DNA of 50,920 nt from Actinomycetota bacterium (lineage in GTDB: Bacteria; Actinomycetota; Acidimicrobiia; Spongiisociales; UBA11373), in NCBI GenBank assembly GCA_020444505.1, contig JAHLKU010000002.1:1-50920 (forward strand), given 5' to 3'. How positions within the stretch are numbered: position 1 is the stretch's first letter; each line of letters begins with the position of its first letter. The notes beneath the pieces were generated by a model, which was not told where the DNA came from, did no database searches, and saw only the letters and a list, made by a program, of their open reading frames with translations. Shown piece by piece: positions 34,583-50,920 of the stretch. A program made the translations under genes and the position numbers.

Positions 34583-37057
34583 ATGAGGCCCGGCCGGCGG
34601 CACCCGAGGTGGGCGGTGGTGGCGCTCGCCGCATCGATGACGGCCGCCTGCGGGGGATCGGCGCTCTCCGTCGACGGGACCTCTTCCACGACCACCGCCA
34701 CCACGGCCGCGATCTTGCCTGTCGAACCGACGTTCTCGTACCGGGTGGACGCGACGGTCGCCGATCCGTCGGGCGCCGTCGAGGTCGTCGCCAACGACAC
34801 GGGCTCCTCACGCTTCACCCCCGGCCGGATCGTGCTCGTCTTCGCCGACCCTGCCGACCTGGACGCAGTCCTCGACCGGTACGACGGCACGGTGGTCCAC
34901 TCCTTCTCGACCGGCGACTACGGCGTCCCGGGGCCCACGTACGCGGTGATCGAGGTGGATCTGTCCACCGTGGACCCGGACGAGATGCCGGGCGCCATGA
35001 CGGCGCTGGGCATCGAGGGCTCGTCGGCGTTCGGGTCGGAGGACGGCGCCCGCCTTGCAGCCATCGTGGCCGTCGAACGGGCCGCCGGCCGGCAGGTGAG
35101 CCTCGAGTGGAGGACCGAGACCACCGAGATCCCGTTCTCGACGCAGGAGGCCAGCACCACCGGCGGGCGCCGGGGATGGTCACCGAACGCCTACGAGTTG
35201 TCCTACTACCAGCGGGATTCCGTGCAGGGCTTCGGGGTGGCAGAGGCGTGGTCGCTGATGTACTACGCGGGGGTCCTCGGCAACCGGGTGCCCATCGCCG
35301 TCATCGACCGTGGCTTCGAGGTGGACGATGACTTCGCCGACCCGGTCACCTACGCCATGGACCCGTCCTACCTGGAGTTCGGCGAGTCCGACGACGGGTA
35401 CCACGGGTACGAGACGTCGTCGATCGCGATGGCGATCCCCGACAACGGCTACGGGATCGCCGGGGTCGCCGGCGTGGTCGCCGAGCCGATCCTCATCCAG
35501 CGCGGCGCATCCACCGACACCGATGCCATCGAGGCGCTGCTCCAGGCCCGTGCCCTCGGCGCAGAGATCGTCAGCATGTCGTTCATCACCGCGGTGATCG
35601 ACGAATGGGCCTACGTTGCCGACCTCTGGGACCCCGTCACGAGCGCCCTCGCCGACGACGGCGTGCTGATGTTCGCCTCTTCCGGCAACGGAGGAGGCAA
35701 CCTCGACGAGGCCGTCGCCGAGCGAGAGGGGCTGATCGGCACCCGCCCGTGCCAGGCACCGGGGGTGATCTGCGTCGGCGGCCTGGCCGAGGACTCGATC
35801 GACCGCGACGAGCACTCGGTGTACGGAGAGCCCGGCGGCAGCGTGCCCATCTTCGGTCCGTACTGCGTCCACACGATCCCGCCGCAAGGCGGCGGCACGG
35901 TGTTCTGGACCTGCGGGACCAGCCTGTCGGCGCCCTTCGTGGCCGGCGTCGCCGCGCTCGTGTGGGCGTCCAACCCCGACCTGACCGCCGACCAGGTGTG
36001 GGCGATCATGGAGGCGACCGCCCATCCCGGCCGCTGGCCGCGGGTGAACGCCTACGGGGCGGTGGCCGACGCGCTGCCGCCGGCTGCCTTCGTCTCGTTC
36101 GCCGAACCGGCGCCCGATTCGGGCCACGAACTGGCGAACGCCATCACGCTGGCTGCGGTCGTGGCCATCCCGACCGACCTGAACACCTCGTCCGCCGAGG
36201 TGACGATTCGGTTCGCCTCCGATCTCGACGGGCCGATCGACGAGACCACGTGGACGGTCGTGATGGAGCACGACGAGGCGGTGTCCACCCAGCGCGTGTC
36301 CACGGTGACGGCCGACCTGTCGGAGGGAGACCACGTGCTGACCGTGACGGCCACGTACGGCGACGCCGAGGTCTCGGACATCAGGATCATCCACGTCGGC
36401 AACTCGCCGCCGACCGACCTGGTGATCACTCAGCCCGACGACGGGGACCTGGTGTGCGAGGGCTCGACGGTGTTGCTGCGAGGCGACGCGTTCGACATCA
36501 ACGAGCAGCTCGGCCTGTCCAACAGCGCGTTCCGCTGGTCGTCGAGCATCGACGGCCCTCTGGGCAGGGGCCGCAACCGGTCGGAGGACGGACTCAGCGT
36601 CGGCGAGCACGTGATCACCATGCGGGTGGTGGATGCCGGCGGTCTCGAGTCGTCGGAGACGGTGGGGATCACCGTCTGGTCGGCGACCTACCCGGCGTGC
36701 CGCGATGCTCCGCCCGACGCGCGGATCAACCGGCCGCTCGACGAGGCGAGCTTCTATGTGGACTACGAAGGGGACGACTACGAGACGGGTGTCGACGAGG
36801 ACGGCGCCTACGTCGTGGTGACGCTCCGGGTCCGGGTGAGCGACGACCGGGACGAGCCGGAGGATCTGCAGATCGACTTCTACGTCACCCCCGACGAGCC
36901 CGACGCGTGGGTGGGCAGCGGGCGCACCATCGAGACGAGGCTCCATCTCCCCGATGGCGAGACCTCACAGGCCAAGACGATCCGGGTCGTCGTCTACGAC
37001 AGCGGCGGCAACGTGGCCGAAGACGAGATCAGGGTGTTCGTCAGCCGCTTCGTGTGA
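34583..37057 (+). CDS. Subtilisin-like (S8) serine protease lipoprotein
   Basis: 824 residues. Lipoprotein signal with Cys23, then a Thr-rich spacer. Residues 45-200 look like a propeptide. The catalytic domain has IAVIDRGFEV (D242), DDGYHGYETSS (H274), FASSGNGGG (oxyanion N369) and CGTSLSAPFVAG (S447), a full S8 triad although the His block reads HGYE rather than the usual HGT. From about 480 on come beta-sandwich domains (DLSEGDHVLTVTATYGDAEV and GLSVGEHVITMRVVDAGGLES repeat the same theme), probably Ig-like substrate or wall-binding modules. It should act outside the cell, anchored to the membrane. GGAGGAGG sits 7 nt before ATG 34583. It converges with the cyclophilin gene, 3 nt apart. Confidence 0.88.
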   Translation: MRPGRRHPRWAVVALAASMTAACGGSALSVDGTSSTTTATTAAILPVEPTFSYRVDATVADPSGAVEVVANDTGSSRFTPGRIVLVFADPADLDAVLDRYDGTVVHSFSTGDYGVPGPTYAVIEVDLSTVDPDEMPGAMTALGIEGSSAFGSEDGARLAAIVAVERAAGRQVSLEWRTETTEIPFSTQEASTTGGRRGWSPNAYELSYYQRDSVQGFGVAEAWSLMYYAGVLGNRVPIAVIDRGFEVDDDFADPVTYAMDPSYLEFGESDDGYHGYETSSIAMAIPDNGYGIAGVAGVVAEPILIQRGASTDTDAIEALLQARALGAEIVSMSFITAVIDEWAYVADLWDPVTSALADDGVLMFASSGNGGGNLDEAVAEREGLIGTRPCQAPGVICVGGLAEDSIDRDEHSVYGEPGGSVPIFGPYCVHTIPPQGGGTVFWTCGTSLSAPFVAGVAALVWASNPDLTADQVWAIMEATAHPGRWPRVNAYGAVADALPPAAFVSFAEPAPDSGHELANAITLAAVVAIPTDLNTSSAEVTIRFASDLDGPIDETTWTVVMEHDEAVSTQRVSTVTADLSEGDHVLTVTATYGDAEVSDIRIIHVGNSPPTDLVITQPDDGDLVCEGSTVLLRGDAFDINEQLGLSNSAFRWSSSIDGPLGRGRNRSEDGLSVGEHVITMRVVDAGGLESSETVGITVWSATYPACRDAPPDARINRPLDEASFYVDYEGDDYETGVDEDGAYVVVTLRVRVSDDRDEPEDLQIDFYVTPDEPDAWVGSGRTIETRLHLPDGETSQAKTIRVVVYDSGGNVAEDEIRVFVSRFV

Positions 37058-39603: not shown

Positions 39604-40226
39604 TTGGCAGCTGAGCGGGCGTTCGGTGAACCGATCACAGAACGGGGCCGGGCCACTCGACAGGCGCTGCTCGACGCCGCCGAAGCGGTGTTCGACGAGT
39701 ACTCCTTCGACCGGGCGTCGATCAGCGAGATCACGCGCCGGGCCGGTGTCGCCCAGGGCACCTTCTACCTCTATTTCTCCGACAAGCGCGCCGTGTTCGT
39801 CGAACTGGTCGAGACGCTCAGCCACGGCCTCCGCAGCGCCATCGCCGAAGCCGTCGAGGGTGCGGCCGACCGCGTGGAGGTGGAGCGCATCGGCTTCGAT
39901 GTGTTCTTCGACTACATCACCCGGCACCGCGGGTTCTACAAACTGGTGCGCGAGTCGGAGTTCGTCGACCCCGACGTGTTCCACTCCTACTACGACCACT
40001 TCCTGAAGGGCTACGTCCCCGGTCTCGCCGAGGCCATCGAGCGGGGCGAGATCGCCGGCGATCTCGACCCCGAGGTGCTGGCGTTCTGTCTGATGGGCAT
40101 CGGCGAGATCATCGGCCTGCGCTACGTGGTGTGGCAGGACGGCAGGCCCCTCGACCGGCGCATCGCCGAGCAGGTGTGGCGGTTCATGCTGCGGGGCCTC
40201 GGCGTGCCGGAAGAGGGGACGGACTG

Positions 40227-40227
<1 letters not shown>
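39604..40227 (+). CDS. TetR-family transcriptional regulator
   Basis: 207 residues. N-terminal HTH at about 15-62: RQALLDAAEAVFDEYSFDRASISEITRRAGVAQGTFYLYFSDKRAVF is the textbook TetR pattern. The C-terminal ligand domain (FFDYITRHRGFYKLVRESEFVDPDVFHSYYDHFLKGYVPGL) is helical and resembles those of fatty-acid and acyl-CoA regulators. Start at TTG 39604 with GGAGGAAG before it; this is the rare start in the window and may limit its level. It probably represses its own operon through the 39570-39590 palindrome until an acid or acyl-CoA is present. It is coupled to the first ligase gene by TGATG. Confidence 0.9.
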
Positions 40228-41728
<1,501 letters not shown>

Positions 41729-41732
<4 letters not shown>

Positions 41733-42775
41733 GCGACGTCAGGGCCGGCGTGGTCGCCACCGCCCACTACCTCCCCCCCGAGGTGATGACCTCCGCCGAG
41801 ATCGCCGAGGCCGCCGGCCTCCCGCCGTGGGTGGTCGAGGAGAAGCTCGGCATCACCCAGAAGCACATCGCCACCCCCGACACCCATCCCAACGAGATGG
41901 CCGCCATCGCCGGCAGGGAGTGCATCGAGAAGGCCGGCATCGACCCGGCCGAGATCGACGTCGTGCTCTGCACCACCGAGGAGTGGAAGGAGTACTGCCT
42001 CTGGACCGCAGGCATCGACCTGGCCTACGAGATCGGGGCCACCAACGCCTGGGGCATGGACATCCACATGCGGTGCGCCACCACGGTGACCGCCATGAAG
42101 CTGGCCAAGTCGCTGATGGCCGCCGACGACGACATCGACACCGTGATGATCGCCGGCGGCTACGTCGTCTCCCGGTTCATCGACTTCTCGAACATGCGGA
42201 CGTCGTTCCTGTTCAACATCGGCGCCGGTGCCGGGGCGATGCTGGTCAAGCGGGACTGGCCGGCCAACCGCATCCTCGGCAGCCACCTGATGTCGGACGG
42301 CACCATGGCGCGCCACGTGATCGTGCCGTCCAGCGGGACGATGAAGCACCCCACCGACCAGGCGGTGGCCGACGGGGAGTTCTTCTTCGACCTCGTGGAG
42401 CCGGAAGCCATGAAGAGCCGGCTCAACGAGGTCTCCATGGACAACTGGATGCACTGTGTGGACGAGGCGCTGCGCAAGAGCGGCGCCAAGGCCGACGGCA
42501 GCCCGTACGCCCGTGACGACGTGTCCTATCTCGACATGCTGCTGGTGAAGCCCTCGGCGCACCGCGACATGCTGGAGCGGCTCGGGCTCACCGAGGACCG
42601 CTCCACCTACCTGGGGTCGATCGGCCACATCGGCGAGCAGGACACGATCATCTCCATCGACGAGGGCCTCCGCACCGGGGCCCTGCGCGACGGCGACGTC
42701 ATCGCCGCCGTCGGGGCCGGGATCGGGTACGTCTGGGCGGCCGGGATCCTGCAGTGGGGACCGGTGGAGGACTGA
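41729..42775 (+). CDS. KAS III-like condensing enzyme with His in place of the catalytic Asn
   Basis: 348 residues of the thiolase-like fold, FabH/HMG-CoA-synthase branch. The start GVVATAHYLPPEVMTSAEIAE and WVVEEKLGITQKHIA match KAS III. The nucleophile is C116 (DIHMRCATTV). VKPSAHRDML supplies His278. In FabH the third residue is Asn in a GN motif; here the aligned SIGHIGEQD has H300. The end GDVIAAVGAGIGYVWAAGILQW is typical. Reaction unknown: it may condense, or split by reverse condensation, acyl-CoAs made by the flanking ligases. Overlaps both neighbours (ATGA and TGATG), so synthesis is coupled to theirs. Confidence 0.8.
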
Positions 42776-44310
42776 TGGAGCAATCGACCTACGTCACCGA
42801 CTGGCTCGACAAGCGGTCCCGACTCACCCCCGACCGGGTGGGCCTGGTGGACTACCGCAGCGGCGCCGAGACCACCTACCGGGAGTGGAACGCCCGCGCC
42901 AACAAGACCGCCCGCTACCTGCAGTCGCTGGGCCTGCGCCGCGGCGACCGCCTCGCCGTGTACAGCGGCAACACCCCCGAGTACGTGGACCTGTTCTTCG
43001 CAGCGGGGAAGCTCGGCATCATCCTGCAGAACCTGAACTGGCGGCTCACGGTGCGCGAACTGGAGGGCATCGTGGCCGACGGCGAGCCCCGGGTGCTGAT
43101 GTACTCCCCGGAGTGGGCCGAGAACGTCGAGGCGCTGCGGCCGTCCTTCACGACGATCGCACAGGTGGTGGCCCTGCAGGGCGACCCGGGCGGCGACCGC
43201 CCGTTCTCCGAGCGCGACGCCATGGACGACGGCCCGGTCGAGATGCCCGACCTGTCGTGGGACGACCCCTGGGGCATCTACTACACCGGCGGCACCACCG
43301 GCCTCCCCAAGGGGGCGATCCTCACCCACGGCAACATCACCTGGAACAGCGTCAACACGATCTCGTCGTGGGGCGTCCACGGCGGGCACGTCGCCCCGCT
43401 GCAGCTGCCGTTCTTCCACGTCGGCGGGCCGAACATCTTCCTGATGCCGCTGGTGCACACCGGCGGGAAGACCATCCTGTGCGAGGGCTTCGACCTCGAC
43501 GAGACCTTCGACCTCATCGAGTCGGGCGGCATCACCCACTACGTGGCCGTCCCGACGATGTACCAGATGATGCAGAGCCACCCCCGGTGGGAGGCGGCCG
43601 ACTTCTCGCACCTGGAGCTGGTCATCAGCGGCGGGGCGCCGTGCCCGTTGCCGGTGATGCAGAAGTTCTGGGACCGGGGCATCGACTTCAAGATGGGCTA
43701 CGGGCTCACCGAGGCCGCAGGCAACAACTTCTGGCTGCCGCCGCCCGATGTGGCCCGCAAGACCACCTCGGTGGGCCACCCGCTGTTCCACATCGCCATG
43801 AAGGTGGTGGGGGAGGACGGCGAGGCGCTGGGGCCGAACGAGGAGGGCGAACTGCTCATCAAGGGGCCGCACGTCACTCCCGGCTACTGGAACCGGCCCG
43901 AAGCGACCGCCGAGACCATCGTGGACGGGTGGCTGCACACCGGCGACGTGGCCCGCTACGACGACGAGGGCTTCTTCACCATCATCGGCCGCAGCAAGGA
44001 CATGTACATCTCCGGCGGCGAGAACGTGTACCCCGCCGAGATCGAGAGCGTCATCCTCGACCACCCGGCCGTGGCCGAGGCGGCGGTGATCGGCATCCCC
44101 CACGAGACGTGGGGCGAGGTCGGCAAGGCGTTCGTGGTGAAGGCGCCGGGCGCCGAGATCGACGAGGACGCGCTGCTGGCCTATCTGCTCGAGCGCCTCG
44201 CCAAGTACAAGGTCCCCAAGTCGGTGGCATTCATCGATGAGATCCCCAAGACCGCCATCGGGAAGATGGACAAGAAGGTCCTGGCCGCCGCAGAAGGAGG
44301 CGCAGCATGA
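42775..44310 (+). CDS. Acyl-CoA synthetase (AMP-forming), second of two
   Basis: 511 residues, ANL superfamily. P-loop YTGGTTGLPKG, QLPFFHVGG, YVAVPTMYQMM, ISGGAPCP, MGYGLTEAAGNNFW, GWLHTGDVARYDDEG, IGRSKDMYISGGENVYPAEIE and GKMDKKVL (Lys at about 497) are complete. It is clearly different from the first ligase in its substrate-lining regions (GLTEAAGNN versus GMTEFGPD), so the two probably activate different acids or act at different steps. ATG 42775 overlaps the upstream stop (TGATG) and the stop overlaps the hydrolase ATG (ATGA). Confidence 0.9.
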   Translation: MEQSTYVTDWLDKRSRLTPDRVGLVDYRSGAETTYREWNARANKTARYLQSLGLRRGDRLAVYSGNTPEYVDLFFAAGKLGIILQNLNWRLTVRELEGIVADGEPRVLMYSPEWAENVEALRPSFTTIAQVVALQGDPGGDRPFSERDAMDDGPVEMPDLSWDDPWGIYYTGGTTGLPKGAILTHGNITWNSVNTISSWGVHGGHVAPLQLPFFHVGGPNIFLMPLVHTGGKTILCEGFDLDETFDLIESGGITHYVAVPTMYQMMQSHPRWEAADFSHLELVISGGAPCPLPVMQKFWDRGIDFKMGYGLTEAAGNNFWLPPPDVARKTTSVGHPLFHIAMKVVGEDGEALGPNEEGELLIKGPHVTPGYWNRPEATAETIVDGWLHTGDVARYDDEGFFTIIGRSKDMYISGGENVYPAEIESVILDHPAVAEAAVIGIPHETWGEVGKAFVVKAPGAEIDEDALLAYLLERLAKYKVPKSVAFIDEIPKTAIGKMDKKVLAAAEGGAA

Positions 44311-45374
44311 GCATCCCCGTCACTCCGGGGGTGGAGGCGAAGCGGGTCACCACCGACCGCGTCACCACCCGGGTCCTCTTCACCGGCGACCCCGGCGGGG
44401 TGCCGGTGCTGTTCCTGCACGGGAACATCTCCTGCGCCACCTGGTGGGAGCGGACCATGCTTCGCATGCCGGAGGGGTACTGGGGCATCGCTCCCGACCA
44501 GCGCAACTACGGCGAGTGCGAGCGCGGCACGGTCATCGACGCCACGCTCGGCCTCGCCGACCTGGTGGAGGACGCCATCACGCTGCTCGACCACCTCGGC
44601 GTCGGCCGGGCGTTCGTCTGCGGCAACTCGCTGGGCGGCAACGTGGTGTGGCGGCTCATCATGGACCATCCGGAGCGGGTCATCGGGGCCATCCAGGCCG
44701 GCCCGGGCTCTCCCTACGGGTTCGGCGGCAACCACGGCCTGGAGGGGACCCCGATCTACGACGACTGGGCCGGTTCCGGCGGCGGGGTCATCAACCGCGA
44801 GATGGTGCGGATCCTCGGAGAGGGCGACAAGTCGGCCGAGCACATCCTGTCGCCCCGCAACGCCATCCGCCGCCTGGTGTGGGGCCCCGACGTGATCCCC
44901 GACTGGGAGGACGCCCTCATCGACGCCGCGTTCGCCACCGAGGTGGGTGAGGACTCGTACCCGGGCGACCACGTGGAGTCCCCCAACTGGCCCTACTTCG
45001 CCCCCGGGGTGAAGGGGGCCACCAACGGCCTGTCCGGCAAGTACCTGGCCGACCCGCAGCGTCTGGTGGACGTCGAGCCGAAGCCGCCGATCCTGTGGAT
45101 CCGCGGCAGCGCCGACCTCGCGATCGGCGACCCGGCCGCCAGCGACCCGGCCAACCTCGGGCAACTGGGCCTGATGCCCGGCTACCCGGGTCCCGACGCG
45201 TATCCGCCACAGCCGATGATCGGCCAGACCCGGGCGGTCCTCGACCGCTACGCGGCGGCCGGAGGCGATTACCGGGAGGAGGTGATCGAGGGGGCGGCCC
45301 ACGTGCCGTTCATCACGACACCCGATGAGTACGACCAAGCATTCCATGCGTTCCTAGAGGAGTTCCATCCGTGA
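44307..45374 (+). CDS. Alpha/beta hydrolase of the uptake/activation cluster
   Basis: 355 residues. VLFLHGNISCATWW has the oxyanion motif; APDQRNYGECERG follows; FVCGNSLGGNVVW holds the nucleophile S108; ILWIRGSADLAIGD gives the acid candidate; GAAHVPF gives H332. The lid region (150-260) is long. Candidates include an esterase releasing the acid for the ligases, or a C-C bond or thioester hydrolase acting on the condensing-enzyme product. Coupled to the ligase by ATGA; the transporter follows after a 50-nt gap. Confidence 0.85.
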   Translation: MSIPVTPGVEAKRVTTDRVTTRVLFTGDPGGVPVLFLHGNISCATWWERTMLRMPEGYWGIAPDQRNYGECERGTVIDATLGLADLVEDAITLLDHLGVGRAFVCGNSLGGNVVWRLIMDHPERVIGAIQAGPGSPYGFGGNHGLEGTPIYDDWAGSGGGVINREMVRILGEGDKSAEHILSPRNAIRRLVWGPDVIPDWEDALIDAAFATEVGEDSYPGDHVESPNWPYFAPGVKGATNGLSGKYLADPQRLVDVEPKPPILWIRGSADLAIGDPAASDPANLGQLGLMPGYPGPDAYPPQPMIGQTRAVLDRYAAAGGDYREEVIEGAAHVPFITTPDEYDQAFHAFLEEFHP

Positions 45375-45424
45375 CTCCTCCGGGACACCGACAGAGAGCA
45401 ACACATACGAACGGGAGGAAACGA

Positions 45425-46813
45425 ATGAGCAGGAGATTCCTGCGGGTAGCAGGCCTTCTTGTGGCCTTTGCCCTGGTGATCGCTGCCTGCGGCGACGACG
45501 ACGCCGAGACGACGACCACCGAGGCTGCCACGACGACCGAGGCCGCCACGACGACCGAGGCCGCCACGACGACCGAGGCCGCCACGACCACGACCGAGGC
45601 GATGCCCATGGGCGTGTCGTGCGGCGACGGGGTGACGATCGGTGTGATCACCGACCTCACCGGTTCGCTGGCGATCTACGGCACCCACATGAACCGGAGC
45701 GTGCCGATCGGCTTCGCGTATGCGACCGGCGGCGAGCCGCAGGAGGGCATGGAACAGACGTACATGCTCGACGACTGCGAGATCCGGGTCGTGTTCAAGG
45801 ACGACCAGTCCGATGCCGAGCTGAGCGCCACCGCCGCCCGCGAGCTGATCGAGGTCGAGGGCGCGAGCATCATCATCGGCTCGGTGAGCTCCGGCGTCAC
45901 CGCCACGCTGCAGGGGATCGCCCGTGAGAACGACGTGATCCTCATCGCGGCCCCGGCGGCGGCGACCGACATCACCGGCAAGGACTTCGACCCGAACACG
46001 TTCCGCACCAGCCGGAGCAACTACCAGGACGGCATGGCCATCTGCGACCAGTTCGTGAACAACGACGGGTACCAGACGTTCGTGCAGATCGCACCCGACT
46101 ACTCGTTCGGCTACGGCGGGGCGCAGGCGTACTTCGACGCCTGCACGTACTACGGCGGCGAGTTCATCGCCGACGACATCTTCGCCCCGGCCGACACGAC
46201 CGACTTCACGACCTACCTGGAGCCCCTGGCGGGGACCGAGGCCGACGCCCTCCTGGTCACCTGGGCCGGCGGCGGGTTCGTGCCGCTGCTCCAGGCCGCG
46301 CTCGACCTCGGCGTGATCGACGACGACACCGTCCTCGGTTCGCCGTTCGTCGACAACGTCGTGATGCCGATCTTCTTCGGCAATGCGGTGGGGACCACCT
46401 CGGTGATCCTCTACTGGTACGGCGGTCCCGACAACCCGGCGAACGACTACCTGGTCGCCGAGACCCAGGCGAAGTACGGCGTGAACCCCGATCTCTTCGA
46501 CGGGGACGGGATGAGCGCCGCGATCATGGCCATCGAGGGCCTCCGGGCCACCGGGGGCGCCGCCGACGCGGAGTCGCTGCGGGCTGCGTTCGAGGGCATG
46601 ACCTTCGAAGGCGCCAAGGGCACGTACTACATCCGTCCCGAGGATCACATGGCGATCCAGGACATGTACGTCGTGAACCTGACCGGCTTCGATGCCGACA
46701 CGACGTTCCCGATCTACGACGCGGTCGCCACCGTGCGCCCCGAACCGCCCTGCCTGCTGGAGGGTGACTACGTGGCCCGGTGCGGCGATCTGCCGGTCGG
46801 CAACCTCGGATAG
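45425..46813 (+). CDS. Liv-type ABC transporter substrate-binding lipoprotein
   Basis: 462 residues. The signal VAFALVIAAC gives lipobox Cys22; a spacer of (TTTEAA) repeats to residue 59 lifts the domain off the membrane. The type I periplasmic-binding fold starts VSCGDGVTIGVITDLTGSLAIYGTHMNRSVPIGFAYA and runs through VVFKDDQSDAELSATAARELIEVEGASIIIGSVSSGVT. It binds a ligand for the permeases downstream; family ligands include branched amino acids, amides, urea and aromatic acids. Start ATG 45425 is chosen for GGGAGGAAACG before it and for the signal peptide; an upstream in-frame codon at 45371 lacks both. A strong hairpin follows the gene. Confidence 0.92.
   Translation: MSRRFLRVAGLLVAFALVIAACGDDDAETTTTEAATTTEAATTTEAATTTEAATTTTEAMPMGVSCGDGVTIGVITDLTGSLAIYGTHMNRSVPIGFAYATGGEPQEGMEQTYMLDDCEIRVVFKDDQSDAELSATAARELIEVEGASIIIGSVSSGVTATLQGIARENDVILIAAPAAATDITGKDFDPNTFRTSRSNYQDGMAICDQFVNNDGYQTFVQIAPDYSFGYGGAQAYFDACTYYGGEFIADDIFAPADTTDFTTYLEPLAGTEADALLVTWAGGGFVPLLQAALDLGVIDDDTVLGSPFVDNVVMPIFFGNAVGTTSVILYWYGGPDNPANDYLVAETQAKYGVNPDLFDGDGMSAAIMAIEGLRATGGAADAESLRAAFEGMTFEGAKGTYYIRPEDHMAIQDMYVVNLTGFDADTTFPIYDAVATVRPEPPCLLEGDYVARCGDLPVGNLG
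45509..45601 (+). repeat. 18-bp tandem repeats coding the TTTEAA spacer
   Basis: Near-exact copies of ACGACGACCGAGGCCGCC, about five units with a variant first and last, encode the Thr/Glu/Ala linker of the binding protein. Length may vary between strains. Confidence 0.85.
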
Positions 46814-46823
46814 CGAACCCTGC

Positions 46824-46857
46824 GATGTGGGGGGCGGCTCCGGCCGCCCCCCACATC
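46824..46857. terminator. Strong hairpin between the binding-protein gene and livG
   Basis: A perfect 15-bp stem starting GATGTGGGGGGC with loop TCCG, 10 nt after the stop. In Liv operons such hairpins often cap and protect the abundant binding-protein mRNA and only partly stop transcription into the ATPase genes. No T-tract follows. Confidence 0.75.
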
Positions 46858-46877
46858 CCGAAACGGAAGGAGCCGTC

Positions 46878-47657
46878 GTGGGCGCGATCCTGGAGACCAG
46901 GGGCCTGCGGAGGGAGTTCGGGGCACTGGTCGCGGTGGACGACGTGGACCTCTCGATCGAAGAGGCCACCCTCCACTCCATCATTGGCCCCAACGGCGCG
47001 GGCAAGACCACCCTCTTCAACCTGATCAGCGGGACCCTCGCCCCCACCCGCGGCAAGGTCTTCTACAAGGGCGAGGACATCACCGGCCACCCGATCCACC
47101 AGACCATTCACAAGGGCATCGGCCGGTCGTTCCAGATCACGAACATCTTCCCCAACCTGACGGTGCTGGAGAACGTCCGCCTCGCCGTGCAGGCCACCGG
47201 CAAGGACAGCTTCCGGATGCTGGCGCCGCACCTCAGGTTCTCCGACTACCTGGACCGGGCCACCGAGGTGCTGGCCCGGGTGGGCCTGGCCGACCGGGCC
47301 CTGCAGATCGCCGGGACGCTGCCGCACGGCGACCAGCGCAAGCTGGAGCTGGGCATGATCCTGGCCCCCGACCCCGACGTCCTCATGCTCGACGAGCCGA
47401 CCGCCGGGATGGCGGCCGAGCAGGTGCCGCAGTTGATGGAGCTCATCCAGGAGATCCAGGCGGCCGGGGGCCGCACCGTGGTGCTGGTCGAGCACAACAT
47501 GAGCGTGGTGATGACCGTGTCCGACCGCATCACCGTCATGCACCAGGGCGGGGTGTTGGCCGAGGGCACGCCGGCGGAGATCTCCGCCGACCGCCAGGTG
47601 CAGACCGCGTACCTGGGCGCCCTCTACGGCGACGTGGTGAGGGGAGGCGGCCGATGA
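46878..47657 (+). CDS. livG: Branched-chain/aromatic-type ABC importer ATPase (LivG-like)
   Basis: 259 residues. Walker A GPNGAGKTTL, Q-loop SFQITNIFPNLTVLENV, signature LPHGDQRKLELGMIL (the LivG form of LSGGQ), Walker B VLMLDEPTAGM and switch His VEHNMSVVM are present. It pairs with the LivF-like subunit. Start GTG 46878 with GGAAGGAG before it. Its stop overlaps the livF ATG (ATGA). Confidence 0.92.
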   Translation: MGAILETRGLRREFGALVAVDDVDLSIEEATLHSIIGPNGAGKTTLFNLISGTLAPTRGKVFYKGEDITGHPIHQTIHKGIGRSFQITNIFPNLTVLENVRLAVQATGKDSFRMLAPHLRFSDYLDRATEVLARVGLADRALQIAGTLPHGDQRKLELGMILAPDPDVLMLDEPTAGMAAEQVPQLMELIQEIQAAGGRTVVLVEHNMSVVMTVSDRITVMHQGGVLAEGTPAEISADRQVQTAYLGALYGDVVRGGGR

Positions 47658-48352
47658 GCCTCCTCGACCTGCACGACGTGCACACCTTCATCGGCAAGTT
47701 CCACATCCTCGAAGGCGTCTCGGTGGAGGTGCCGCAGGGGAGTGTCGTTGCCCTGCTGGGCCGCAACGGCGCAGGCAAGACCACCACCCTGAAGACCATC
47801 CTCGGCCTGACGCCGGCGTCGTCGGGGAGGGTGGTGTTCGACGGCGACGACATCGTCGAGATGCGCAGTTTCGACATCGCCGCGATGGGCATCGGCTACG
47901 TCCCCGAGCATCGGGCGATCTTCGCCGACCTGAGCGTCGAGGAGAACCTCCGGATCGCCGAGCGCCGCAAGGGCGACCTGGAGAGGAGGGAGGAGCTGAT
48001 CTTCGGGCTCTTCCCCGACCTGAAGCGGCTGATCGGCCTGCCCGGCACCAGCCTGTCGGGGGGCCAGCAGCAGATGCTCGCGGTGGCGCGGGCCCTGGTG
48101 CCGGAGAACCGGCTGCTGCTGATCGACGAGCCGAGCGAGGGCCTCGCCCCGGTGCTCATCGAGCAGATGATCGAGGCGATCGCCCGGCTGTCGGACACCA
48201 CGACGGTGCTGCTCGTGGAGCAGAACTTCCTGGTGGCGAGCCGGCTCGGCACCACCTACGTGATCATCGAGGAGGGGCGATCGGTGAAGACGGGCGACAT
48301 GACAGACCTCGTCGACGACGACGAGACGATCCAGCGGTACCTGGGGGTGTGA
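47654..48352 (+). CDS. livF: Branched-chain/aromatic-type ABC importer ATPase (LivF-like)
   Basis: 232 residues. Walker A GRNGAGKTTT, GIGYVPEHRAIFADLSVEENL (LivF-typical Q region), LSGGQQQMLAVARAL, Walker B LLLIDEPSEGLAP and VEQNFLVA with the LivF replacement of the switch His by Gln are all seen. Coupled to livG (ATGA) and to the permease gene (TGATG). Confidence 0.92.
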   Translation: MSLLDLHDVHTFIGKFHILEGVSVEVPQGSVVALLGRNGAGKTTTLKTILGLTPASSGRVVFDGDDIVEMRSFDIAAMGIGYVPEHRAIFADLSVEENLRIAERRKGDLERREELIFGLFPDLKRLIGLPGTSLSGGQQQMLAVARALVPENRLLLIDEPSEGLAPVLIEQMIEAIARLSDTTTVLLVEQNFLVASRLGTTYVIIEEGRSVKTGDMTDLVDDDETIQRYLGV

Positions 48353-49956
48353 TGGCGGACACCAAGCAGATCGACCAGATCGAGTCCCCGGGGCCTTCGC
48401 GCAACCGGCGGATCGCCGATGCCATCAAGCGCAACCGGGCGCGGGCCACCGTGCTCGGCGTGCTGGCGGTGCTGTTCCTCGCCGCCATGGCCGGCATCGA
48501 GGCCGACCAGTGGTTCGGCACGATCATGAAGGCCCTGGCGGCCGGTTCCGTCATCTTCCTGGTGGCGAGCGGGTTTCAGTTGATCTTCGGCCTGATGGAC
48601 GTGCTGAACCTGGCGCACGGCGAGTTGTTCATGCTCGGCGCCTACGTGGGGTGGACCGTCTACACCCGGTTCGACACGTTCCTCGACGTGCTCGTCCCGA
48701 TGCTGCTGGTGGCGGCGCCGTTCGCCCTGCTGCCGCTGTGGCGCCGCCTCGGCGCCCGTGTGGCGGCGCTGGCGCGGTGGGCGAGGAGCGCGGCGTGGGG
48801 CCTGATCGTCCTGGGCGGCGGGCTCATGCTGCTGTCCATCACCAAGTTCCCGCTGGTCATCTGGAACGCCGAGGACTTCGCCAAGACCCCGGCCAACTAC
48901 TCGGTGCAGATCGACCTCGGCACCCTGGTCCCGCTGCCGGAAGACGTGTTCGGCTGGCCGATGGCGGTGGCGATCGTGGTGCTGCTGGCCGGCGCCTCGG
49001 CGCTGGCCCTGGGCCTGTCGTCGCTGCGCAAGCACGCGGGGGCGGTCCCGCCGCTCGGCCGATGGAACCTGATCGGCGCCGCCGGGCTGATCGTGGCCTC
49101 GGTGGCGCTGCACCTGGTGCGGGGCCCGCTCAACGACTGGGTGTTCGGCATGAGCACCACCTGGCGGTTCTTCATCGCCCTGATCGTGGCGTCGCTGCTC
49201 GGCGCCGGGCTGGGGGCGCTCATCGAGGTGGTGCTGATCCGCCCGCTGTACGACCGTCCCATCTACACGCTGATGGTCACCCTGGGGGTGGGGTTCGTGA
49301 TCATCGAGACCGTCAAGGAGCTGTGGGGGTCGTCGAACTTCACCATGGCCCGCCCCGCCGCCTTCAACGGGTCCGGTGAGGGCTGCCCGGCCGAGGGCAT
49401 CGGCGGCTTCTTCAGCGGCTGCTCCACCCTGGTGGTGTTCGGCAGCCGGCTGCGGGTGTACAACGAGGGCTTCGTGGTGGTGATCGGGATCCTGGTGTTG
49501 ATCGGGGTGAGCCTGTTGCTGAAGCGGACCCGGATCGGCATGACCATCCGGGCCGGCGTGCAGGACCCCGAGATGGTGGAGGCGCTGGGCATCAACGTGC
49601 GGCGCGTGTTCACCATGGTGTTCGCCCTCGGCGCCGGCCTCGCCGCCTTCGGCGGGGTGCTGGCGGCGCCGTCGATCGGCCTCTACACCGAGATGGGGGC
49701 GCTGTTCCTGCTGACCGCCATCGTGGCGCTGGCCATCGGCGGCCTCACCTCGTTCCCGGGGGTGGCCGCCGGCGCCCTGCTGATCGGGCTGCTGCAGCAG
49801 ATCATCATCCGCTTCGGCCAGACCGGCATCCACATCCCGTTCGTGGCCGAGCCGTTCAAGCCGTCGCCGACCCTGGTGCCGGCGGCGTCCATCATCCTGA
49901 TGATCGTGATCCTGCTGGTCTTGCCCGCCGGCCTGTTCGGAAGGGGGGAGCGATGA
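48352..49956 (+). CDS. livH: LivH-like permease with a large internal insertion
   Basis: 534 residues, against about 290-310 for usual LivH. An N-terminal extension of about 35 residues precedes the first helix. FGLMDVLNLAHGELFMLGAYVGW (79-101) is the start of the LivH domain; the next conserved block, GALIEVVLIRPLYDRPIY, only comes at 288-305. The roughly 150 extra residues between contain three or so more hydrophobic segments and a soluble stretch (WNAEDFAKTPANYSVQIDLG). TRIGMTIRAGVQDPEMVEALGINV (393-416) is the ATPase-contact loop. A Cys pair lies in a further loop (CPAEGIGGFFSGC). ATG 48352 is preferred to GTG 48349 because it forms the TGATG overlap seen elsewhere in this operon. Confidence 0.88.
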   Translation: MADTKQIDQIESPGPSRNRRIADAIKRNRARATVLGVLAVLFLAAMAGIEADQWFGTIMKALAAGSVIFLVASGFQLIFGLMDVLNLAHGELFMLGAYVGWTVYTRFDTFLDVLVPMLLVAAPFALLPLWRRLGARVAALARWARSAAWGLIVLGGGLMLLSITKFPLVIWNAEDFAKTPANYSVQIDLGTLVPLPEDVFGWPMAVAIVVLLAGASALALGLSSLRKHAGAVPPLGRWNLIGAAGLIVASVALHLVRGPLNDWVFGMSTTWRFFIALIVASLLGAGLGALIEVVLIRPLYDRPIYTLMVTLGVGFVIIETVKELWGSSNFTMARPAAFNGSGEGCPAEGIGGFFSGCSTLVVFGSRLRVYNEGFVVVIGILVLIGVSLLLKRTRIGMTIRAGVQDPEMVEALGINVRRVFTMVFALGAGLAAFGGVLAAPSIGLYTEMGALFLLTAIVALAIGGLTSFPGVAAGALLIGLLQQIIIRFGQTGIHIPFVAEPFKPSPTLVPAASIILMIVILLVLPAGLFGRGER

Positions 49957-50920
49957 CCATGCTCACCGCCGAGCGCGGCCCGCGGGCCCTGTGGCGCCGC
50001 CGCCGCGGTGTCGTGTACATGGCCCTGGCGCTGCTGATGTTCCCGTTCGTGATCTCGCTGCTCGTGGACGGGCAGGGCATCGCATCGGTGTGGAACAACG
50101 ACCTGGGCAACGCCCGCTTCCTGCAGGGCCTGGCCATCGAGGTGTTCATCCTCGGGCTGTTCGCCATCTCCTACGACCTGCTGCTCGGCGTGGCCGGGAT
50201 CATCTCCTTCGGGCACGCCATGTTCTTCGCCGTCGGGGCCTACGGCTTCGGCATCATGCTGAAGAGCTTCGAGCTGCACTGGGTGATCGCACTGCTGCTG
50301 GTGGGGGTGCTGGCGGTGCTGCAGGCGCTGCTGTTCGCCATCCTCCTGCCGCGGGTGAAGGGCCTCACCTTCGCGCTGGTCACCCTGGGCATCGCCGCGG
50401 TGTTCTGGATCGTCATCTCCTCCAGCGACCTGGCCCAGTGGGCGGGTGCCGAGATCGGCCTGCAGGGCGTGGAGACCCCGGTGTGGTTCCTCGACACCAC
50501 CAACCACCGGTTCGTGTTCTACCTGCTGGTGGCGGCGATCATGCTCGGCGTCTACGTGCTGTACACCAAGATCGCCGACTCCCCGATGGGGCGGGTTCTG
50601 GTGTCGGTGCGCGAGAACGAGGACCGCTCGTTGATGCTGGGGTACAACACGTTCTGGTTCAAGACGGCGGCCCTCATCGTGTCGTCGCTGACCGCGGCGC
50701 TCGCCGGGGTGCTGCACACGATGCACCAGCCGATCGTCACCCCGAACGTGGCCGGCCTCACGTTCGCCATCACCGTGCTGCTGATGGTGCTGATCGGCGG
50801 GGCCGGGACCATCAGCGGCGCCCTGGTGGGCGCCGCCGTGTACCGCCTGCTCAACTTCTACCTGGACAAGTGGTTCGGGGGCGCCTCCGGGTTGCTGGTC
50901 GGCCTGGTGTTCGTGCTCCT
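49953..50920 (+). CDS. livM: LivM-like ABC importer permease (3' end outside window)
   Basis: At least 322 residues, open to the window edge. ATG 49953 overlaps the livH stop (ATGA). After an Arg-rich lead (LWRRRRG) come membrane segments and the LivM signatures: AISYDLLLGVAGIISFGHAMFFAVGAYGFGIM, RVKGLTFALVTLGIAAVFW, DSPMGRVLVSVRENEDRSLMLGYNTFWFKTAALIVSSLTAALAGVLH, and VLIGGAGTISGALVGAAVY. It pairs with LivH to form the channel. The stop codon and anything after it are not visible. Confidence 0.92.
   Translation, partial: MTMLTAERGPRALWRRRRGVVYMALALLMFPFVISLLVDGQGIASVWNNDLGNARFLQGLAIEVFILGLFAISYDLLLGVAGIISFGHAMFFAVGAYGFGIMLKSFELHWVIALLLVGVLAVLQALLFAILLPRVKGLTFALVTLGIAAVFWIVISSSDLAQWAGAEIGLQGVETPVWFLDTTNHRFVFYLLVAAIMLGVYVLYTKIADSPMGRVLVSVRENEDRSLMLGYNTFWFKTAALIVSSLTAALAGVLHTMHQPIVTPNVAGLTFAITVLLMVLIGGAGTISGALVGAAVYRLLNFYLDKWFGGASGLLVGLVFVL

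Follow-up and report, generated by a model that had tools for sequence, protein, structure and literature searches.

A KAS III-fold protein of the PRK06840 family with a putative Cys-His-Asp acyl-transfer site in an uptake and acyl-CoA operon

The gene at 41729–42775 (+) of the window, which is the whole stretch of 50,920 nucleotides that was analysed, encodes a KAS III-fold protein. With a probability of roughly 0.6, this protein is a CoA-thioester transacylase that uses Cys116, His300, and Asp305 in place of the lost decarboxylating Cys-His-Asn set, and takes part in acid breakdown. The gene lies in an operon with uptake transporters and acyl-CoA enzymes, and the core of this operon recurs in at least six phyla. 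The operon is widely spread and apparently unstudied.

Translation of 41729–42775 gives 348 residues and a stop, in agreement with the open reading frame of the sequence-only reading, an earlier model-made reading of this DNA. The protein scores 411.1 bits against the NCBIfam profile NF005308 (PRK06840), with residues 5–346 on model positions 4–338/339, and thus exceeds the curated cut-off of 315 bits across the whole model. Pfam ACP_syn_III and ACP_syn_III_C are also matched. Structure prediction with AlphaFold2, which the sequence-only reading had proposed as a check, returns the KAS III fold at a mean pLDDT of 94.5, and VIA-align gives Z scores of 36–38 between this model and KAS III chains. 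The nearest solved structures in Foldseek and VIA-align are FabH, BioZ, PqsD, and PqsC, which are nearly tied, and CerJ/ChlB3 is not among the best 50 structural matches listed, so the class cannot be read from the fold ranking. The KAS III fold is shared with PqsD and PqsC at a Z of about 36–37. PqsD keeps Cys-His-Asn, and we know of no GHxGxxD signature in either PqsD or PqsC.

Homologues were taken from a degenerate-peptide scan of genome contigs, from the NF005308 model, and from a protein search of whole genomes. The scan was seeded with CTTEEWK and NAWGMD[IM], so that part of the conservation of those stretches among its hits comes from the seeding itself; the NF005308 and whole-genome searches are free of this bias. 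Clustering at 95% identity leaves 89 sequences, 88 of which cover the sites of His300 and Asp305. The PRK06840 relatives fall into four groups. Group A, to which the window protein belongs, has Cys and TTEE, and its records come from Acidimicrobiia, Chloroflexota, Acidobacteriota, KSB1, Ignavibacteria, Gemmatimonadota, and Myxococcota. Group A′ is marked by SEE and group C by GSE, and group B mostly has Ser at the nucleophile position. Group B (L005–L018) and two further sequences, L154 and L155, mostly read NVS[CAM]G, with a Cys following in some of them, and share the GH....D motif; the Ser of DpsC may be compared. A KSB1 genome holds a second PRK06840-like protein (L029:16764–17774) that stands between the groups, with GSEYKD, Cys, and GHIQTLD.

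PRK06840 matches occur in 18 of the 138 genomes of the window's order. The group A members in this order cluster in another family than the window's, and group A is absent from the other searched genomes of the window's own family, including one of the same genus. The operon looks accessory and is possibly a transferred unit. A search of viral contigs yielded no relative.

Cys116 (codon 42074–42076, +) pairs with the nucleophile Cys of FabH in the alignments, as the sequence-only reading had placed it. It is Cys in all 57 group A relatives, and Ser in 18 of the 23 members of sister group B. The block SIGHIGEQD replaces the GN block of FabH, again as first read, and puts His300 (codon 42626–42628, +; motif GH.G..D) on the site of FabH Asn274 and on the His of ChlB3 and CerJ-like proteins. 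This residue is His in 88/88 clustered relatives that cover the site and in 106/106 before clustering, a conservation far from chance. Homologues with GN here would have spoken against the sequence-only reading, and none occurs among the 88; Asn at position 300 is absent from all relatives found. Judged from these alignments, the change of Asn to His is the rule across the whole PRK06840 family and is not peculiar to the gene at 41729–42775. The same reading had considered an Asn from elsewhere in the oxyanion place. The alignments put none there, and the conserved Asn columns of group A (55, 155, 163, 180, 239, and 269) appear to lie off the site; at column 269, which of these lies closest to the His244 segment, the window protein itself has Asp. 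Asp305 (codon 42641–42643, +), which had been overlooked, stands five residues after His300, the same spacing as in ChlB3. It is equally invariant, with Asp in 88/88 of the clustered relatives covering the site, and is the proposed partner of His300.

The Cys-His-His set that had been proposed for the protein does not hold, since its third member, His278 (codon 42560–42562, +), is not the equivalent of FabH His244. No alignment pairs the two residues: HMMER sets E. coli FabH His244 against the Leu271 column of the window protein, and hhalign aligns the FabH IPHQA segment to a gap. In the AlphaFold2 model His278 lies inside helix 275–284, and its column has Tyr or Phe in 10 of the 56 sequences of group A; in group B, 7/23 have Phe, Tyr, or Leu there. 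The alignments, the model helix, and the Tyr and Phe in relatives rule it out as the catalytic His. With His278 rejected and Asp305 invariant, the residue set is Cys-His-Asp. At column 272, close to the FabH His244 site, the window protein has Leu272 (codon 42542–42544, +), while a His (LHMK) is present in half of group A and throughout the other groups.

The window protein is thus like FabH in fold, active Cys, and overall alignment, and unlike it in having Leu for His244, His300 for Asn274, and an added Asp305; of the Cys-His-Asn triad only the Cys is present. Both the His and the Asn of FabH are needed for its condensation step (PMC5724707), and malonyl decarboxylation is therefore not to be expected of a protein that, by its sequence, lacks them. 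NCBIfam names the family '3-oxoacyl-ACP synthase', which implies decarboxylative condensation, whereas the window protein has neither FabH residue and the whole family is without the Asn. The annotation is probably wrong for the window protein, and a whole family is probably annotated as a fatty-acid initiation enzyme without performing that reaction. A full-text literature search for PRK06840 found no paper naming the family.

The closest counterparts of the residue set are acyltransferases of the CerJ/ChlB3 type. ChlB3 has Cys113-His296-Asp301, in which the His and Asp act on the Cys, and CerJ has the same arrangement (PMC9573744). AfcL, a KAS III-like enzyme with Cys/His/Asp, carries the peptidyl thioester before passing it to an amine (PMC12186527). 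The PDB sequences of ChlB3 and DpsC read GHLGASD and GHLGGGD where the window protein reads GHIGEQD. From Cys to His there are 183 residues in ChlB3 and 184 in the window protein, and the Asp follows at +5 in both. The GHxGxxD signature of this type, comprising the Cys, a His at the FabH Asn site, and an Asp at +5, is therefore found in the window protein. In a profile alignment, six CerJ/DpsC-like genome proteins have their C, H, and D in register with it, at a distant identity of about 19%. The match of Cys116, His300, and Asp305 to the triad of CerJ, ChlB3, and AfcL makes non-decarboxylating acyl transfer a well-supported reading of the sequence, and with it the view that the protein works like the Cys-His-Asp acyltransferases. 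The sequence-only reading, which suggested acyl transfer or Claisen-type chemistry without decarboxylation, fits this analogy, as the same replacement together with the Asp makes up the known triad.

Membership of the CerJ/ChlB3 class by descent is favoured by the sequences. A tree built without the motif columns places groups A and B together with the CerJ-like proteins on the same side of a branch supported at 92/92; an alternative topology that keeps PRK06840 apart from the CerJ class is not rejected by the AU test (p 0.12), so that the shared GHxGxxD could be convergent. Group A differs from the CerJ class in the invariant Glu84-Glu85 of its CTTEEWKE motif (codons 41978–41983, +), present in 57/57 group A sequences, a count that is partly by construction. 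The pair is seen too in relatives found without the CTTEEWK seed, is lacking in the CerJ class, and could mean a different chemistry. The setting differs as well: ChlB3, CerJ, DpsC, and AfcL belong to antibiotic or lipopeptide synthesis, and the known enzymes of the class serve natural-product synthesis and not catabolic operons, whereas the window protein is encoded in an uptake and acyl-CoA operon.

This operon is tightly packed and has about 14 genes, most of which abut their neighbours or overlap them by a few bases. All the operon genes given here with window coordinates are on the + strand. A TetR-type regulator (39604–40227) is the first gene, and has a TetR counterpart at the equivalent place in L019–L021, L023, L026, L027, and L073; the KAS homologue in L019 is 74% identical to the window protein. 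It is followed by an AMP-forming acyl-CoA ligase of the MYVGDY type (ligase 1, 40227–41732), the KAS gene, and a second AMP-forming acyl-CoA ligase (ligase 2, 42775–44310; AMP-binding at 274 bits), whose closest solved structures are feruloyl- and fatty-acyl-CoA synthetases at 404 bits. Next come an alpha/beta hydrolase (44307–45374) with GNSLGG and, by inspection, a Ser-type nucleophile, and a LivK-type substrate-binding protein (45419–46813) in a conserved position. The remaining genes are a LivG-type ATPase (46692–47657 as listed, with the true start probably further in), a LivF-type ATPase (47654–48352; ABC_tran), a LivH-type permease (48349–49956; BPD_transp_2), and a LivM-type permease (49953–50920) that runs off the window. 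Beyond the window, the contig goes on to encode a third ligase (ligase 3), a MaoC hydratase, a crotonase, and another MaoC-like protein.

A ligase lies near the KAS gene in each of the 29 group A loci that have enough flanking sequence. Alpha/beta hydrolases are near it in 25 of these loci, transporters of the Liv or SSS type in 17, and SDRs in 13. Chloroflexota and Ignavibacteria have extended operons, which also encode a thiolase, a DUF35 protein, one more ligase, and, besides the KAS protein itself, a second KAS III-like protein. Some loci have neighbouring genes for TonB receptors or isocitrate lyase, for acyl-CoA dehydrogenase together with Etf, or of the PhaC-like kind. The importers, the three CoA ligases, and the enoyl/hydroxyacyl-CoA enzymes together suggest the uptake and breakdown of a carboxylic acid, and with the hydrolase they make acid breakdown the most likely service of the KAS enzyme. 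The closest solved structures of the ligases, the hydrolase, and LivK do not pin down the substrate.

In the proposed scheme, the Liv ABC transporter would import the carboxylic acid and the three ligases would activate it, one of them supplying the acyl-CoA for the KAS enzyme. Asp305 would orient His300, and His300 would activate Cys116, which would take the acyl group from acyl-CoA. His300 would then activate an acceptor, and the acceptor would remove the acyl group from Cys116; transfer to O, N, or S, as in CerJ, ChlB3, and AfcL, is one possible form of this step. The enoyl/hydroxyacyl-CoA step could fall to MaoC and crotonase, joined by the SDR in many relatives, and the alpha/beta hydrolase may cleave an ester or thioester. 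The geometry of the triad, the lack of decarboxylation, the catabolic direction, and the substrate are what we infer. If the enzyme acts in acid breakdown, Cys-His-Asp chemistry on the KAS III fold would extend from antibiotic synthesis to primary catabolism, and would do so across several abundant environmental phyla. The transporter, ligases, KAS protein, and hydrolase would then form a directly testable operon for a carbon source.

A more specific form of this proposal, which we put forward tentatively, makes the protein a catabolic counterpart of CerJ/ChlB3 with a Glu-Cys-His-Asp site, which would cleave or transfer the acyl group of the imported acid in the place of a thiolase, and whose operon-mates in many genomes would include a second, still more unusual KAS III paralogue with Cys-Thr-Tyr. 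If true, both the role and the active site would be new for this fold and would be spread over many phyla, under a misleading name. A thiolase-like retro-Claisen cleavage is possible but doubtful. Cys116 would attack a beta-ketoacyl-CoA made by the operon hydratases and a dehydrogenase, and CoA would release a shortened acyl-CoA. The part of His300 as the His of the thiolase GHP motif, and of Glu84/85 as the acid/base replacing the second thiolase Cys, is equally doubtful. His300 would be at the right place if the GHP His corresponds to the FabH Asn site, as we take it to do. The Cys, the His in a GH motif, and the acyl-CoA context are thiolase-like, and the neighbours are of the beta-oxidation type, i.e., three ligases, MaoC, and crotonase, to which some relatives add SDR, acyl-CoA dehydrogenase, and Etf, and L054 adds isocitrate lyase; the window operon also has no other thiolase-fold enzyme. 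The thiolase of Z. ramigera, however, uses Cys89, Asn316, His348 (GHP), and Cys378 (PMC3406046), and the window protein has no counterpart of the NEAF Asn or of the second Cys: NEAF and CxG are absent, VGAGIGY stands at the place of that Cys, and Pfam Thiolase_N stays below threshold at 20.6 against 26.4 bits. The window operon also lacks an SDR, and in the extended operons a full thiolase with DUF35 adjoins the KAS protein. Ordinary thiolases elsewhere in the genome mean that the retro-Claisen reading is not forced.

A reaction like that of HMG-CoA synthase, an aldol or Claisen condensation in which Glu84 would be the base, is improbable. Glu84 lies 32 residues before Cys116, the same spacing as between Glu79 and Cys111 of the S. 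aureus enzyme, and archaeal 6esq gives a weak profile match (residues 6–131, 57.9 bits). Thiolase and DUF35, partners in the archaeal HMG-CoA synthase complex, are added in the extended operons, but the window operon has neither. Glu84 and Cys116 could fill two places of the Glu-Cys-His set, yet the His of that set has its counterpart in FabH His244, where the window protein has Leu, and the score against the archaeal family is 39 bits for a cut-off of 244. A full-text literature search for a set of HMG-CoA synthase residues found nothing. That the protein is the ordinary decarboxylating KAS III of its annotation, with another residue standing in for Asn274, is very unlikely: the overall fold, the FabH and BioZ structural matches, and the family name agree with it, while both His244 and Asn274 are missing and genes for fatty-acid or polyketide synthesis are absent from the operon. 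The genome already encodes two canonical FabH-type proteins whose set is Cys-His-Asn (L002 and L003), so the product of 41729–42775 is not its sole KAS III. OleABCD-like synthesis of a beta-lactone or olefin has the slightest chance. The KAS protein, SDR, AMP ligase, and alpha/beta hydrolase are the same kinds of enzyme as those of the Ole set, as in the gene composition of the Polyangia and Chloroflexi loci, but the PRK09258 KAS III model, presumably OleA-type, gives 30 bits against a cut-off of 285, the SDR is FabG-like, the ligases are closest to feruloyl- and fatty-acyl-CoA synthetases, and the uptake transporters favour import.

The second KAS III-like protein of the extended operons (L025:4604–5617, L032:8383–9387, L039:4924–5922, L043:14551–15552, L045:19908–20918, and L054:13569–14576) forms a separate, strongly supported clade. 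It keeps the Cys, and has Thr for the FabH His (FTQLNLR) and Tyr for the FabH Asn (GY[IL]GSAC), a Cys-Thr-Tyr set that to our knowledge is not among described enzymes. The thiolase and DUF35 pair beside the KAS genes (L025:8276–9985, L031:17449–19277, L043:17117–18875, L036:1707–3610, and L032:11285–12973) resembles the archaeal thiolase/DUF35/HMG-CoA synthase set.

PhaC-like genes, which resemble class III PHA synthases below the cut-off, lie beside the operon at L161:18906–19919 and L031:365–1420 (−), and the L163 hydrolase matches an intracellular PHA depolymerase below threshold, a hint of 3-hydroxyacid chemistry. Downstream of the KAS gene in another locus is an HpaB-family protein of the 4-hydroxyphenylacetate 3-hydroxylase type (L041:12905–14374), with acyl-CoA dehydrogenase and Etf genes alongside. 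In the window itself, positions 34583–37057 (+) encode what its motifs suggest to be a subtilisin-like (S8) secreted protease with a lipoprotein-like start.
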